In this document: in pieces, positions 35,457-41,312 of the stretch
Position numbering within the stretch: position 1 is the stretch's first letter
Layout: every line of letters begins with the position of its first letter
Source: Deltaproteobacteria bacterium
GTDB taxonomy: Bacteria > Desulfobacterota > Deferrimicrobia > Deferrimicrobiales > Deferrimicrobiaceae
Length of the DNA: 64,000 bases
Assembly: GCA_021815305.1 (NCBI GenBank)
Contig: JAKAHC010000003.1
Location: 62,001-126,000 of the forward strand
Direction of reading: 5' to 3'
Program-made: the position numbers and the translations under genes
The notes under the pieces: generated by a model
What the model was told of the DNA's origin: nothing
The model's database searches: none
What the model saw: the letters and a program-made list of their open reading frames with translations, nothing else

Positions 35457-36209
35457 TCAGCGGCCTCCGGGGTGCGCTCCGGGGCGGAAGTGCCTGTGCA
35501 GCAGGGCGGTCAAGGTTTTCGCATCCGGCGCCTCCGCTCTCGTCCCCTCGTGGACCACGATGCCGTTCCGCAGGATCACGTGGAGCGAAAGAAGCCGCAG
35601 AGCGGTATCCGCGTCGTGCTCCGCGAGCAGGATCGTCGCCTTTCCCTTCATCGTCCCCTCGATCACGGAGAGCAGCCGGTCCCGCATCTCCCGCGACAGC
35701 CCCAGGAACGGCTCGTCCATCAGCAGAAGCGTCGGCTCCCCGATCAGCGCCCTCCCCAGGATCAGCATCTGGCGCTCCCCCCCCGAGAGGATCCCCGCCG
35801 GTTCGCGCGCCTTATCCCCCAGTACCGGGAAGAGGGAGAGCACCCGCTCGCGGGACGGCTCCCTGCGGGCTGCGGGCAGCAGCCAGGCGCCGGCATCGAG
35901 GTTTTCCCGGACGGTCATCCGCGTCGCCACCCGCGACCGGTCGGAAACGTAGCGGACCCCCCTTCGCGCCCGCTCGTGGGCCGGGAGCGCGGTGAGGTCT
36001 TCCCCGCGATACGCGATCCGGCCGCCGGCGGACGGGAGAAGGCCCGCCACCGCCTTCAGGAGCGTGGTCTTCCCCGACCCGTTCGCCCCGAAGATCGCCA
36101 GCGTTTCCCCCTCCCGCACCGAGAAGGAGACGTTCCGCACCGCCACGACCTGGCCGAAGGCGACCGATAGCTCCCGCACCCTCAGGCCCTGGCCCTCTCC
36201 TCCCGCCAC
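35457..36209 (-). CDS. livF: Branched-chain amino-acid ABC transporter ATP-binding protein (LivF)
   Basis: 250 residues from GTG 36209. ABC motifs: Walker A FGANGSGKTTLLKAV, signature LSGGERQMLILGRAL, Walker B TLLLMDEPFLGLS and the H-loop LLAEHDAD. The short form and the position after livG fit LivF. With LivG it would energise LivHM. Stop of livG and start of livF are 3 bases apart. Confidence 0.9.
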   Translation of the reverse strand: MAGGEGQGLRVRELSVAFGQVVAVRNVSFSVREGETLAIFGANGSGKTTLLKAVAGLLPSAGGRIAYRGEDLTALPAHERARRGVRYVSDRSRVATRMTVRENLDAGAWLLPAARREPSRERVLSLFPVLGDKAREPAGILSGGERQMLILGRALIGEPTLLLMDEPFLGLSREMRDRLLSVIEGTMKGKATILLAEHDADTALRLLSLHVILRNGIVVHEGTRAEAPDAKTLTALLHRHFRPGAHPGGR

Positions 36210-36212
36210 CGG

Positions 36213-36896
36213 CTACACCGCCCTCTCCCGGGAGATGCGCCCTCCCTTCAAGGTGAGGATCCGGCCGCACGTCGACGCGAGGAGCGGCGGGTTGTGGGAG
36301 ACCAGCAGGAACGCCGTCCCGTCCTCCCTGTTCGAGGTCGCAAGGAGAGCGACGAGCTCCGCTTCGTCGGACGCCGACAGGGCGGAGAAGATCTCGTCCA
36401 GGAGCAGGACCCTCGGCCGGCACGCAAGGGCCCTTGCGAGCTCGAGGCGGCGGAGGCACCCTTGGGACAGGCGGGCGCAGGGGACGCAGCGCTGGTCGAA
36501 CAACCCCACCCGCCGCAGGAGCGCAAGCGCCGGTTCCTCTTCCTCCCCGGCGCCGCCCCGGCGGCCGCGCTGCGAGGCGGCCGCCATCGGCACGAGGACC
36601 GCTTCGAGGACGGAGAGGGCGGGATACGGGCTCGGCACCTGGAAGGTCCGCGCGATCCCGGCGCGGTACCGCGCGTCCATCGGGAGGCCGCCGATCTCCC
36701 GCCCCTCGAACCCCACCGTGCCGGCGTCCGGCTTCGTGAGCCCCGAGAGGATGTCGATGAGCGTCGTCTTCCCCGACCCGTTGGGACCGATCAGCCCGAC
36801 CGCCTCCCCCGGCGCGAGGGAAAGCGTGACCCCGTCGAGCACGCGATCGCCGTCGAACGCCTTGCGGATCTCCCGGGCCTCGAGCAGCGGGGTCAC
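36213..36896 (-). CDS. livG: Branched-chain amino-acid ABC transporter ATP-binding protein (LivG)
   Basis: 227 residues, shorter than the usual 250-260 for LivG. GTG 36896 overlaps the livM stop. Walker A LIGPNGSGKTTLIDIL, a Q-loop in ARTFQVPSPYP, a degenerate signature LSQGCLRRLELARAL, Walker B VLLLDEIFSALS and the H-loop LVSHNPPLL are present. The C-terminal LivG tail is missing, which may explain the length. It is the second ATPase of the cassette. Confidence 0.88.
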   Translation of the reverse strand: MTPLLEAREIRKAFDGDRVLDGVTLSLAPGEAVGLIGPNGSGKTTLIDILSGLTKPDAGTVGFEGREIGGLPMDARYRAGIARTFQVPSPYPALSVLEAVLVPMAAASQRGRRGGAGEEEEPALALLRRVGLFDQRCVPCARLSQGCLRRLELARALACRPRVLLLDEIFSALSASDEAELVALLATSNREDGTAFLLVSHNPPLLASTCGRILTLKGGRISRERAV

Positions 36897-37900
36897 GGGT
36901 GCGCCCTCCGCGCCCGGGCGGGTTTCCGCTTCCGGCCCGGGAGCCGCCGGCCGCGCTCCCGGGCCGCCGCCAGGGCGCCCGCGATCCCGCCGGGGAAGAA
37001 GCGCAGGAACAGCAGGAGCGTGAAGGCGAAGAACAGGATCCGCGTGCCCGGCGGGACGGCCAGGCCCTGGAGGAGGGTGTGGAGCAGGACCGCGGCGACG
37101 ACGGGACCGATCACCGTGCCGCGTCCCCCGACGGCGGCGAAGGCGGCCGCCTGGAAGGAAAGCTCCAGGGAGAAGTCCGTCGCCGCGGCCCTTCCCATGT
37201 GGGCCGCGTACGCGACGCCCGCGGCGCCGGCGAGCCCCGCGGAGATCGCGAACGCCCGGCGCTTGTGCCTTGCCGCGTCCACCCCCGACGCGCGGGCGGC
37301 AAGCTCGCTCCCGGCCACCGCGCGCAGGATCAGCCCCTCCCGGGACCGGCGGAAGAGGACCATCGCCCACGTGGCCGCGAAGAGAAAGGCGAGGGCGGCA
37401 TAGTACGAAGACAGGGGGGACGCCGTCTCCCACGGGAGCGTCACCGGGACGCCCCCTTCCCCGCCCCAGGCGTATCCGCCGGCGCCTCCGGGGAAAATGT
37501 GCCCGAGGGCCGCCTCGTGGGCCGCCTCCCCGAGGGCGAGCGTGACGACCGCGACGAAGGGTCCCTTGAGCGGGGCGGACAGGACGCCCACGGCGGCCCC
37601 GGCGGCAGAGGACAAAAGGATCGCGGCGGCGGCGGCGAGCGGAAAGGGCCACCGCAGGAGCGTGGTCAGGACCGCGCAGGCGTACGTCGCGGACCCGAAG
37701 AACAGGGCGTGTCCCAGGGAGACCTGCCCCGCCACTCCGCCCACGATGTCCCAGGAGCCGGCGAAGACGGAGAGGAGGAACCCCGTCGCCATCACGTCGA
37801 GAAGAAAGGAGTCGAGGCCCGCGAGGGGGAGAAAAAGGAGGATCCCCGCCGTGGCCGCCATGGCGCCGGTCGTTTTTTCCAAGGGAGGATTCCTTCGCAT
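36893..37900 (-). CDS. livM: Branched-chain amino-acid ABC transporter permease (LivM)
   Basis: 335 residues with eight to ten hydrophobic helices. The conserved permease segment SWDIVGGVAGQVSLGHALFFG is near the N-terminus and AFAAVGGRGTVIGPVVAA near the C-terminus. The C-terminal tail is strongly basic. The gene is divergent from the GNAT-deacetylase fusion, with 57 bases between starts, so it is separated from livH and the binding protein, which lie 2.5 kb further on. Confidence 0.9.
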   Translation of the reverse strand: MRRNPPLEKTTGAMAATAGILLFLPLAGLDSFLLDVMATGFLLSVFAGSWDIVGGVAGQVSLGHALFFGSATYACAVLTTLLRWPFPLAAAAAILLSSAAGAAVGVLSAPLKGPFVAVVTLALGEAAHEAALGHIFPGGAGGYAWGGEGGVPVTLPWETASPLSSYYAALAFLFAATWAMVLFRRSREGLILRAVAGSELAARASGVDAARHKRRAFAISAGLAGAAGVAYAAHMGRAAATDFSLELSFQAAAFAAVGGRGTVIGPVVAAVLLHTLLQGLAVPPGTRILFFAFTLLLFLRFFPGGIAGALAAARERGRRLPGRKRKPARARRAHP

Positions 37901-37957: not shown

Positions 37958-39793
37958 GTGCAGCCCACAGCGATCCCGGAATACGCGGCTCCCCTGCGAA
38001 GGGACGAGATCCTGCGGGGTTTCGAGCGGCTGGTCGCGGACGGGAGGCTCTTCGGGGCCGATCTCAACCCGGAAGTCATCAAGAAGAGCGGAAAAGGGTC
38101 GCGCTTCCTCGTCACCTCCCTGCCGTCGCGGAGGAAGCTCCTCGCCCTCTGGGCCGACCTGTTCCGGGATCTCCTGTCCCCCGCGGATTTCCTCGACGCG
38201 GTTTCCGCGGGGATCCACGGTTTCGAGCACGACGAGAAGCTGCTCCTCTTCGGGAAGGACCGGGTGATCTACGACACGCGGATCCTGCACGGCGGGGTCC
38301 CGACCGGCGGCATGACGCTGTTTTTCTACTCGGAGCGCGACGGCGACCTGGGGTGGAAGTCGTTCTTCACGGGGCGGAAGCTGCGGATCGTCTACATCGA
38401 GCAGATCCAGCTCCGGGAGCAGAGCTCGGGGTACGCCTCCGCGCTGTTCCGGCATTACGAGCGCCTCTTCCGCGCCCTCGGCTTCAACCAGTTCCGGCTG
38501 AAGGCCTCCCTGTCGGTGGGAAAGTATTACTGGGCGAAGGAGGGGTTCGACTGCGAGGAGAAGGCGGATCTGCGCTTCATGAAGGAGAGGATCCGGGACC
38601 TGGTCGGGGAGCGGGGCCTCCCCGTCGGGGAAACCGAGATCCGGCGGCTCAATCATGCCTACGACGTCTCCATGTTCCGGCGGGATCTGAAGATCCCCGT
38701 GTACCGGGACCCGGACGGGTACTATTCCCTCGAGAGGGACGAAACGCACTCGGAGGAAAGCCGGTTCCCGCTCGGCAAGGCGTGCCTGCTCTGCTCCCGG
38801 CCGTGGGACGGCTACAAGGTCATCTATACGGATACCCCCCGCCGGACGGGATTCGTCCACTCGAAGGAGTATCTCGCCCACCGGGTGCGGCCGGGGCACA
38901 GGGAAAACGGCAGGCGCCTGACCGCGCTCATGAAGGACATCCGCCGGGACGACCTGTACCGGAGCCTGGTTCTGCTGGAACCGTACGTCCCGGAGATGGA
39001 ATACATCCACAAGGTCCACTCCCCGGAGTACATCGAGGCGTTCCGGCGCGGCGTGGAGAGCGGGGCGACGACCTTCTCCACGCGGGACTGCTCCATCTCC
39101 CGCGCGTCGTTCGACGCGGCGCTTCTGGCGGCCGGAGGGGTCATGGCGGGAATCGACGCGGTGATGAACCGCAGGGTCGAGAACGCCTTCTGCGCGGTCC
39201 GGCCCCCGGGGCATCACGCGGGGAGGCGGACCGCGATGGGGTTCTGCTTCATCAACAACGTCGCCGTCGGCGCCGCGTACGCGCGGGCCGCCTACGGGGT
39301 GGAGCGGATCTTCATCCTGGACTGGGACGTCCACCACGGCAACGGCACCCAGGAGATCTTCGAGGAGGACCCGGAGACGTTCTACTGCAGTATCCACGAA
39401 CACCCCTCCTTCTGTTTTCCGGGCACCGGCCGGAGGATGGAGACGGGCAGGGGGCGGGGAGAGGGGTACACCCTGAACCTCCCGTTGCCGCCGCGCACGG
39501 GGGACCGGGAACTGGCGGAGGCGTTCGACGGCGAGGTCATCCCCGCCGTCGAACGATTCCGGCCGGGGCTGATCCTGGTCTCGGCGGGCTTCGACGCCCA
39601 CCACGCGGACGCCATCGCGGACCTCGATCTGACCGAGGCCGCCTATATCCACATGACCCGGAAACTGTGCGAACTGGCGGAGAGGCATTGCGACAGCCGC
39701 CTCGTCTCCGTGCTGGAGGGGGGGTACAACCTGCCGTCGTTGTCATCCTCCGCGCTGGCCCACATCCGGGCACTGCAGGGAAGGAGCCGATAG
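37958..39793 (+). CDS. Fused GNAT-like acetyltransferase and AcuC-type class I deacetylase
   Basis: 611 residues from GTG 37958. Residues about 115-215 have GNAT features: REQSSGYASALFRHYERLF in the place of the acetyl-CoA loop and VGKYYWAKEGFDCEEKA, the late GNAT signature. Residues about 285-605 are a histone-deacetylase-like domain: VHSPEYIEAFRRG, RPPGHHAGRRTAMGFCFINN (active-site His pair), the zinc ligands in DWDVHHGNGTQ and GFDAHHADA, and LEGGYN. In Bacillus acuABC, AcuA acetylates and AcuC deacetylates acetyl-CoA synthetase. Here both activities appear in one chain, followed at once by an AcuB-like gene. The GNAT part is inferred from motif spacing; the deacetylase part is clear. Confidence 0.82.
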   Translation: MQPTAIPEYAAPLRRDEILRGFERLVADGRLFGADLNPEVIKKSGKGSRFLVTSLPSRRKLLALWADLFRDLLSPADFLDAVSAGIHGFEHDEKLLLFGKDRVIYDTRILHGGVPTGGMTLFFYSERDGDLGWKSFFTGRKLRIVYIEQIQLREQSSGYASALFRHYERLFRALGFNQFRLKASLSVGKYYWAKEGFDCEEKADLRFMKERIRDLVGERGLPVGETEIRRLNHAYDVSMFRRDLKIPVYRDPDGYYSLERDETHSEESRFPLGKACLLCSRPWDGYKVIYTDTPRRTGFVHSKEYLAHRVRPGHRENGRRLTALMKDIRRDDLYRSLVLLEPYVPEMEYIHKVHSPEYIEAFRRGVESGATTFSTRDCSISRASFDAALLAAGGVMAGIDAVMNRRVENAFCAVRPPGHHAGRRTAMGFCFINNVAVGAAYARAAYGVERIFILDWDVHHGNGTQEIFEEDPETFYCSIHEHPSFCFPGTGRRMETGRGRGEGYTLNLPLPPRTGDRELAEAFDGEVIPAVERFRPGLILVSAGFDAHHADAIADLDLTEAAYIHMTRKLCELAERHCDSRLVSVLEGGYNLPSLSSSALAHIRALQGRSR

Positions 39794-39794
39794 C

Positions 39795-40430
39795 ATGTTC
39801 GTGGGAAAGAGGATGAAGACCGACGTGATCACCGTATCGCCGGGCGACACGCTCCGGCAGGCGAACGACCTCCTGAAGGAGCACCGGATCCACCATCTGC
39901 CCGTCGTCGAAGGGGGACGCCTCGTCGGCATCGTGACGGGTACGGACATCCGCAACGGCACCCTCGAGCGGACGGCGCCGGGCGGGGAGGGCTCGACCGC
40001 GGCCGAGAACCGGAGGGTCACGGAAATCATGACCCGCAACGTCGTCACCCTCTCCCCCATGGACACGATCGAGGATGCGGCGCTGATCCTCCACCGGAAG
40101 CGGTTCGGGGCGATTCCCGTGGTGGAGAACCGGAAGCTCGTGGGGATCCTCGCCAAGGCGGACATCCTCGCGGCCTTCCTCGATACCCTGGACATCGAGG
40201 GGATCGGGGTGCGCGTCGAGGTCATGCTCCAGCGGGACACCGGCGCGGTGCTCCGGCTGATCCGCCAGGTCGGCGAGATGGAGCTGGAGATCCGCAGCCT
40301 GGTCCTGTCCTCGCTGGGGAAGGAGTATGTGGCGTTCCTGCGGCTCTCGACGATCGACGTCGCGACCGTGAAGGAAAAGCTCCGGGAGGCGGGTTTCCGG
40401 GTCCCGGACATCGCCGAATTCCTGGAGTGA
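39795..40430 (+). CDS. AcuB-like protein, two CBS domains and an ACT-like C-terminus
   Basis: 211 residues, the size of Bacillus AcuB (about 214). Two CBS motifs are clear: MKTDVITVSPGDTLRQANDLL with HHLPVVEGGRLVGIVTGTDI, then MTRNVVTLSPMDTIEDAALIL with FGAIPVVENRKLVGILAKADI. The last 65 residues resemble an ACT-type fold. It starts one base after the stop of the fusion gene. CBS domains commonly bind adenine nucleotides, so this protein may tune the acetylation/deacetylation pair to energy state; that is inference. Confidence 0.88.
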   Translation: MFVGKRMKTDVITVSPGDTLRQANDLLKEHRIHHLPVVEGGRLVGIVTGTDIRNGTLERTAPGGEGSTAAENRRVTEIMTRNVVTLSPMDTIEDAALILHRKRFGAIPVVENRKLVGILAKADILAAFLDTLDIEGIGVRVEVMLQRDTGAVLRLIRQVGEMELEIRSLVLSSLGKEYVAFLRLSTIDVATVKEKLREAGFRVPDIAEFLE

Positions 40431-40445
40431 GGCCGAACGCGGTTC

Positions 40446-41312
40446 TTACGCGTCGCGGGCGATCCCGACGCCGGCGAGCCCCGCCGGGCGGAAGGCCAGG
40501 AGGGCGCACACGGCCGCGAGCAGCAGGAGGTAGGAGGCCTCCGGAGCCAGGTAGTACGCGCTCAGGTTCGACAGCAGCCCCAGCGCGACCGCGAGGAGGA
40601 ACCCGGCCCAGGGACGCTCCATCCCCGAAACGATGACGACGATCAGGGAGAGAATCAAGGGGCTGCGGCCCATGGTGGGGGCGATCGCCGCGGCGGGCGC
40701 CAGGAGGGCGCCGCAGGAGGCCGCGATCGCGGAGGCCGCGCCGAAGGTGAGGTAACGGGTCTTCTCCACGTCCACACCGACCGATTCCGCGATCTCCTCG
40801 TCTTCCGCGATCAGCTTCATCGGGAGGCCCCACCGGGAGGAGAGGAGAATCCGCATCCCCGGAAAGAGGACCGCCGAGGAGAGGAGGGCCGCCACCCCCC
40901 AGGGACGGATCGTCGTGCCGAGGGGGCCGGCGAAGGGGGCGCCTCCCGCGATGACCAGCGGGTGGGGCCCCCAAAGGAACTGGGCGGCCTGCTCGAACAG
41001 GAGGGCGAAGGCCAGGGTCCCCACCGCGACGGAGAACGGGTGGGAGCGCACCGGGTTGATGAAGCTCTTCCCCAGGAAGACGCCGAAGGCGAAGGCGATC
41101 CCGGACCCAAGGAAAACGGCGGCGGCCGGATGGTACTCCGCCCCCCCGGACGAAAGGGCGTAGGCGACGTAGGCCCCCAGGGTGAAGAAGGCCCCGTGGG
41201 AGAGGTTGACGACTTTGACCACTCCCAGGATCAGCGAAAGCCCCGCCGCCATGAGGGCGTAGGACGTTCCGGTCAGGACCCCGTCCAGGAGCAGTTGGGG
41301 AAGGACGGACAC
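40446..41312 (-). CDS. livH: Branched-chain amino-acid ABC transporter permease (LivH)
   Basis: 288 residues from GTG 41312. The N-terminal pattern LPQLLLDGVLTGTSYALMAAGLSLILGVVKVVNLSHGAFFTLGAY is characteristic of LivH. About eight membrane helices follow. SGMERPWAGFLLAVALGLL lies near the C-terminus. It is 15 bases downstream of the binding-protein gene and ends 16 bases from the convergent CBS gene. Confidence 0.92.
   Translation of the reverse strand: MSVLPQLLLDGVLTGTSYALMAAGLSLILGVVKVVNLSHGAFFTLGAYVAYALSSGGAEYHPAAAVFLGSGIAFAFGVFLGKSFINPVRSHPFSVAVGTLAFALLFEQAAQFLWGPHPLVIAGGAPFAGPLGTTIRPWGVAALLSSAVLFPGMRILLSSRWGLPMKLIAEDEEIAESVGVDVEKTRYLTFGAASAIAASCGALLAPAAAIAPTMGRSPLILSLIVVIVSGMERPWAGFLLAVALGLLSNLSAYYLAPEASYLLLLAAVCALLAFRPAGLAGVGIARDA

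Follow-up and report, generated by a model that had tools for sequence, protein, structure and literature searches.

Results and Discussion

The window, by which we mean the whole 64,000-nucleotide stretch of DNA that was analysed, encodes a single 611-residue chain in which a region with a GNAT-type motif precedes a zinc deacetylase domain with intact catalytic residues, and this gene is followed by one for an AcuB-like partner. The arrangement was conserved, the two genes were tightly coupled and the fused deacetylases formed a single clade. We consider it somewhat more probable than the contrary that the protein is a two-headed protein-acylation regulator, in which a writer and an eraser are joined and the AcuB-like protein acts as a nucleotide sensor restraining the eraser. 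Writers and erasers of lysine acylation are normally separate proteins. Once they share a chain, one has to ask what prevents a futile cycle, and the AcuB-like partner suggests an answer that can be tested. If this is true, control by AcuB, so far shown for AcuC in Bacilli, would extend to an HDAC6/HdaH-type enzyme. The features of the pair are as follows.

37958..39793, plus strand: fused gene, GNAT-like N-terminal half and class II-type zinc deacetylase; 611 aa, GTG start, stop ending at 39793
37958..38827, plus strand: N-terminal region, residues 1–290, with a helical lead-in, a GNAT-like core and an extension ahead of the deacetylase (AlphaFold2 models)
38213..38557, plus strand: GNAT-like core, residues 86–200 (AlphaFold2 model, Foldseek, VIA-align)
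38420..38437, plus strand: motif A (acetyl-CoA pyrophosphate loop), residues 155–160, QSSGYA (13-sequence alignment)
38492..38551, plus strand: most conserved stretch of the N-domain, residues 179–198, FRLKASLSVGKYYWAKEGFD; strand 5 and helix 4 in GNAT terms (alignment)
38897..39775, plus strand: zinc deacetylase domain, residues 314–606 (Pfam Hist_deacetyl, full profile, E 2.5e-96)
39200..39217, plus strand: RPPGHH motif, residues 415–420, with the two adjacent histidines of the active site; indicates an HDAC6/HdaH-type enzyme rather than AcuC
39795..40430, plus strand: AcuB-like partner, two CBS domains and an ACT-like C-terminal part; 211 aa

Conservation and coupling of the gene pair

The two frames stood at the positions given in an earlier note on this DNA, made from the sequence alone, and were separated by one base as described there. 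The fusion was 61%–69% identical over 577–606 residues to 12 relatives of the same family, and the CBS gene lay directly 3′ of it in nearly all relatives. Because the frame is conserved in these relatives and the CBS frame directly follows in nearly all of them, the comparison indicates that the 611 codons are no chance open frame. In several relatives the two frames overlapped, suggesting that the fusion and its CBS partner are translationally coupled. One exception, which counts against our preferred explanation, was G204, where the fusion (locus L034, G204:C94) was present without a CBS gene downstream. Fragments of a second, broken N-domain copy lay at the end of a contig in the same genome (G204:C4:20606-20967).

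N-terminal GNAT-like domain

The N-terminal half is very probably a GNAT domain, because several individually modest lines of evidence (motif A, strand order, the Foldseek list, weak Pfam matches and a profile test) agreed when taken together. Neither Pfam nor NCBIfam matched anything over residues 1–290 of the window protein, the N-domain of which was 56%–63% identical to those of the twelve relatives. The AlphaFold2 model of these residues (nine sequences; mean pLDDT 76, pTM 0.71) placed the core elements in the order strands 89–98, 102–111, 114–127 and 141–152, helix 157–173, strand 178–181 and helix 188–195, which is that of the GNAT core, and the same elements were repeated in the full-length model. 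Model confidence was lowest around strand 5 and helix 4, which would form part of the active site. Motif A fell at the junction of strand 141–152 and helix 157, i.e., between strand 4 and helix 3. Position 155 was Q in 12 of the 13 aligned sequences and R in the other, G158 and A160 were invariant, and all 13 read Q/R-S-S-G-Y-A, in agreement with the GNAT pattern Q/R-x-x-G-x-G/A. Residue 148 in strand 4 was always E or D in these sequences; Y190 and Y191 were invariant, and Trp occupied position 192, the place where many GNATs have the general-acid Tyr, and this Trp counts against our preferred explanation. Residues 175–200 were the most conserved among the regions compared, with 20 of 26 positions (77%) invariant in the 13 sequences versus 38% over the deacetylase.

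When the N-domain model was compared with the PDB using Foldseek, nearly all of the matches listed were GNAT-type acetyltransferases, with probabilities mostly of 0.9–1.0, although each match was weak individually (E around 1e-3, best 1.2e-3; TM 0.2–0.5). VIA-align ranked Hat1 first, with a Z of 5.8 that lies under the level the tool calls safe. The weakness of the single matches and the low model confidence around strand 5 and helix 4 likewise count against our preferred explanation. Among the 13 members, seven weakly matched Pfam IDM1_C (best E 0.0022) and one weakly matched Acetyltransf_10 (E 0.14). IDM1_C is the C-terminal domain of the protein Increased DNA Methylation 1, which is a histone acetyltransferase of the GNAT type. 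In hhalign, the N-domain profile was set against 32 ordinary GNATs of this genome and its relatives; its score exceeded those of 300/300 column shuffles (p 0.003) with motif A aligned in register, an alignment obtained in local mode only, global mode being uninformative. These results agree with the GNAT-like motifs that the earlier note had pointed out in this half of the protein, and in the fold comparison it had called for, the strand order and nearly all listed matches were of GNAT kind, but no single match was strong. The acetyl-CoA motif is of intact GNAT type, and acetyl-CoA binding and transfer are predicted from it.

Kinship with AcuA, the acetyltransferase with which the domain had been compared at the outset, was not borne out. 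A profile search of the PDB with the N-domain returned nothing; AcuA chains 9g7f and 2q04 were in the searched set, yet there was no match up to E 10. Direct comparison with AcuA gave an E of 0.73 and was out of register. AcuA was also absent among the structural neighbours listed, an absence that excludes nothing.

The same residues bear on an alternative that we regard as unlikely, namely that the GNAT-like domain has lost acetyl transfer and now serves as an acetyl-CoA (or acyl-CoA) sensor tuning the attached deacetylase, so that the unit would sense both acetyl-CoA and nucleotide state. An intact motif A loop combined with Trp at the usual general-acid position would suit such a sensor, as would the lack of AcuA-like sequence, and the extreme invariance of residues 179–198 could reflect a domain interface no less than an active site. 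However, the strand 4 acid (E/D148) and the two invariant tyrosines are retained, as expected of a catalyst.

Deacetylase domain and AcuB-like partner

The eraser proposed in the writer–eraser reading is the C-terminal domain. Its zinc ligands, histidine pair, catalytic Tyr and RPP and XGGY motifs were all present, making the domain complete, and RPPGHH (415–420), EGGY (587–590), D457/H459, D546 and Y590 were invariant in 13 sequences. The best solved relatives were HDAC6, HDA15, a lysine deacylase and bacterial HdaH enzymes; the HDAC10 polyamine deacetylase, dimethoate hydrolase and propanil hydrolase were also among the matches. According to a survey of these enzymes, the RPP/XGGY pair is common to all robust deacetylases and is replaced in AcuC enzymes (cluster 2c) by XGGLHH and (G/A)GGY (PMC11532494). 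As the window protein carries RPPGHH and EGGY, compared with GGGLHH and GGGY in AcuC, an AcuC-type identity was rejected. The earlier note had described a complete AcuC-type deacetylase: its completeness was confirmed by the full Hist_deacetyl profile and the catalytic residues, whereas the type was wrong, and by its sequence the domain is best described as a complete HDAC6/HdaH-like deacetylase.

The assignment of the downstream protein to AcuB, made in the same note, stood. Pfam found two CBS domains in the 211-aa partner (E 8.7e-32), and its top solved match was AcuB of Geobacillus stearothermophilus, aligned over residues 3–203 versus 3–204 (E 4.3e-25); an archaeal CBS protein scored about the same, but over the CBS domains only. 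The alignment thus points to an AcuB-like protein over the full length, with a CBS-CBS-ACT-like architecture. AcuB of Bacilli binds AcuC via the ACT domain and inhibits it, with AMP or Ap4A as modulator (PMC13121692, PMC13039410), and D89 and E92 of Geobacillus AcuB contact AcuC (PMC13039410). The equivalents of these two residues are kept in the window partner as D90 and E93. Of the nucleotide-bridging pair Arg33/His34 of AcuB, His34 is kept and position 33 is His, while two relatives have His-Arg. Arg33 is needed for Ap4A binding in Bacillus, and its replacement by His in the partner, a difference from Bacillus AcuB, counts against our preferred explanation. By analogy with AcuB, we infer that the partner binds and inhibits the deacetylase encoded by the attached gene under nucleotide control.

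A further AcuB-like gene, 45%–48% identical to the window partner, was observed at G000:C11:98539-99153 (L105:4525-5280) and at L107:4266-4904. In these two genomes it is flanked by apparent genes for aconitase and glutamate dehydrogenase and has no adjacent deacetylase, and its product is possibly a stand-alone nucleotide sensor.

Genomic surroundings

A branched-chain amino acid ABC transporter cluster on the minus strand (window:35457-41312) is split in two by the pair, which is itself on the plus strand. The following genes of the cluster were recognised.

35457-36209, minus strand: branched-chain amino acid transporter ATPase
36893-37900, minus strand: branched-chain amino acid transporter permease, adjoining the pair
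40446-41312, minus strand: branched-chain amino acid transporter permease, on the other side of the pair

Related transporter genes adjoin the pair in G205 and G214. As several other relatives lack those genes beside the pair, the transporter is not its defining partner. The placement of the pair near acyl-CoA metabolism, as originally noted, holds loosely: the beta-oxidation genes lie about 23–30 kb from the pair, and the immediate neighbours are transporter genes.

These neighbours would fit a second alternative, less probable than the sensor, in which the two domains have different substrates: for example, a small amine or the N-terminus of a peptide for the GNAT, and polyamines or other acetylated small molecules for the deacetylase. 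Besides Hat1 and NatD, small-molecule acetyltransferases are among the structural matches of the N-domain, and the HDAC10, dimethoate hydrolase and propanil hydrolase matches point the same way. In contrast, the top solved relatives of the deacetylase are HDAC6, HDA15, a lysine deacylase and HdaH, the partner comes from a family known for controlling a protein deacetylase, and the pair occurs at several other loci without transporter genes.

Proposed mode of action

In the writer–eraser reading, the N-terminal GNAT would bind acetyl-CoA (or another acyl-CoA) via the Q/R-x-x-G-x-A loop and acylate lysines of one or a few client proteins, and the C-terminal HDAC6/HdaH-type zinc deacetylase would take the mark off. 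The AcuB-like partner, probably made in step with the fusion through translational coupling, would bind adenine nucleotides by its CBS pair and restrain the deacetylase by its ACT-like domain, as AcuB does with AcuC in Bacilli. With the partner inhibiting, the writer would win and the clients would be acylated; with the partner releasing, the eraser would win. This model predicts both enzymatic activities, deacetylation of the same sites, nucleotide control and a client. Its most specific form, in which one chain both places and removes a lysine-acyl mark on shared clients and the balance is set by acetyl-CoA and an AcuB-like energy/alarmone sensor, making a self-contained acylation switch, is put forward tentatively, with a little under even confidence. 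That the N-terminal domain is not a GNAT and is instead a class-specific, superficially similar domain, e.g., a scaffold or client-binding domain, is very improbable, since the missing Pfam/NCBIfam match for the N-terminal half of the window protein, the missing PDB profile match and the modest model confidence are outweighed by the motif, strand order, Foldseek list, weak family matches and profile test, which all point to GNAT.

Comparison with known acylation systems

In Bacillus subtilis and Geobacillus, acuABC encodes the GNAT AcuA, the CBS-ACT adaptor AcuB and the deacetylase AcuC (PMC13121692, PMC13039410, PMC11910552). The window likewise encodes a GNAT, a zinc deacetylase and an AcuB-like CBS-ACT protein together. 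Unlike in acuABC, however, the GNAT and deacetylase form one chain, the GNAT has no sequence kinship to AcuA, the deacetylase belongs to the HDAC6/HdaH group rather than AcuC, and no AcsA exceeded the family cut-off in 18 genomes. Because the deacetylase differs from AcuC, the GNAT differs from AcuA and AcsA was not found, the unit is not acuABC itself; by analogy, the fusion and its partner look like a compact, rebuilt version of it.

The same genome contains a second deacetylase–AcuB pair without a GNAT domain (G000:C6:294597-296201; L104:12598-14211), near a gene in which the acyl-CoA synthetase motif YTSGTTGPPKG can be seen and in a cluster with another AcuB-like gene, an arrangement shared with G064 (G064:C78). 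The deacetylases of these HdaH-type pairs were 47%–49% identical to that of the window and were also directly followed by an AcuB-like gene, whereas their partners were only 34%–35% identical to the window partner. They appear to be such a unit in unfused form.

In Salmonella and other bacteria, Pat-type acetyltransferases and the sirtuin CobB, i.e., a GNAT and a deacetylase, control acyl-CoA synthetases by lysine acetylation. Pat joins its GNAT to a domain resembling NDP-forming acyl-CoA synthetases, and CobB is a separate NAD-dependent sirtuin. The window unit resembles Pat/CobB in pairing a GNAT with a deacetylase and differs in having both on one chain.

Distribution and origin of the fusion

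The N-domain was searched for in the phylum (198 genomes), the family (24 genomes) and the class (26 genomes), and by profile through 395 genomes of the phylum. Within the class it was found in 17 of 26 genomes, among them both of those sampled from a second family; the searches also covered about 375 genomes outside the class, none of which contained it. Apart from copies truncated at a contig end or broken in some other way, every copy was fused to a deacetylase. Plasmid records gave no match to the N-domain, and a scan of one genome per species (84,980 species) returned nine loci, all labelled as Deltaproteobacteria MAGs. NCBI places the name 'Deltaproteobacteria bacterium' in Myxococcota, a placement that is uninformative for these particular MAGs; judging by the position of CSP1-8, the class may be the MBNT15/Deferrimicrobia lineage. 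A tree built from 46 deacetylases grouped all fused ones in one clade with a support of 100/100, consistent with a single origin of the fusion, in a class of deltaproteobacteria-like bacteria that are uncultured. The survey across genomes that had been suggested for this fusion thus placed it, among the genomes of the phylum searched, in one class, and no described acetyltransferase–deacetylase fusion was found in the literature searched. Two candidates were rejected: a weak N-domain match in G081 (E 8e-4), which overlaps an unrelated FAD/ferredoxin-type gene and was attributed to chance, and a different N-terminal fusion on a G129 deacetylase, in whose 411-residue upstream frame Pfam found nothing.

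Candidate clients

No client gene beside the pair was common to all relatives, which counts against our preferred explanation. The target named in the earlier note, acetyl-CoA synthetase, was not borne out: none of 18 genomes from the class had an AcsA (TIGR02188) match above the cut-off of 725, the best reaching 431 bits, and AcsA is therefore an unlikely client. In bacteria without AcsA, some other protein has to be the client. All eight genomes tested matched the NDP-forming acetyl-CoA synthetase family, most of them strongly although below its cut-off. Since acuABC and Pat systems target such enzymes and the unfused pair lies near one, our best guess, made by analogy, is that the clients are acyl-CoA synthetases of kinds other than AcsA. 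Candidates in the genome itself are the acyl-CoA synthetases at G000:C1:44023-45546 and beside the C6 pair.

In a genome of the second family (G242:C108; L109:9281-11824), the pair converges on a gene for the alpha-subunit of an NDP-forming acyl-CoA synthetase, a possible client. Sirtuins were found in 10 of the 10 genomes tested. In four genomes a sirtuin gene lies 2–4 kb from an NDP-forming acyl-CoA synthetase-like gene (G154:C32, G099:C67, G200:C1:2052860-2056622 and G205:C68), a proximity that hints at a second, NAD-dependent control of acylation.
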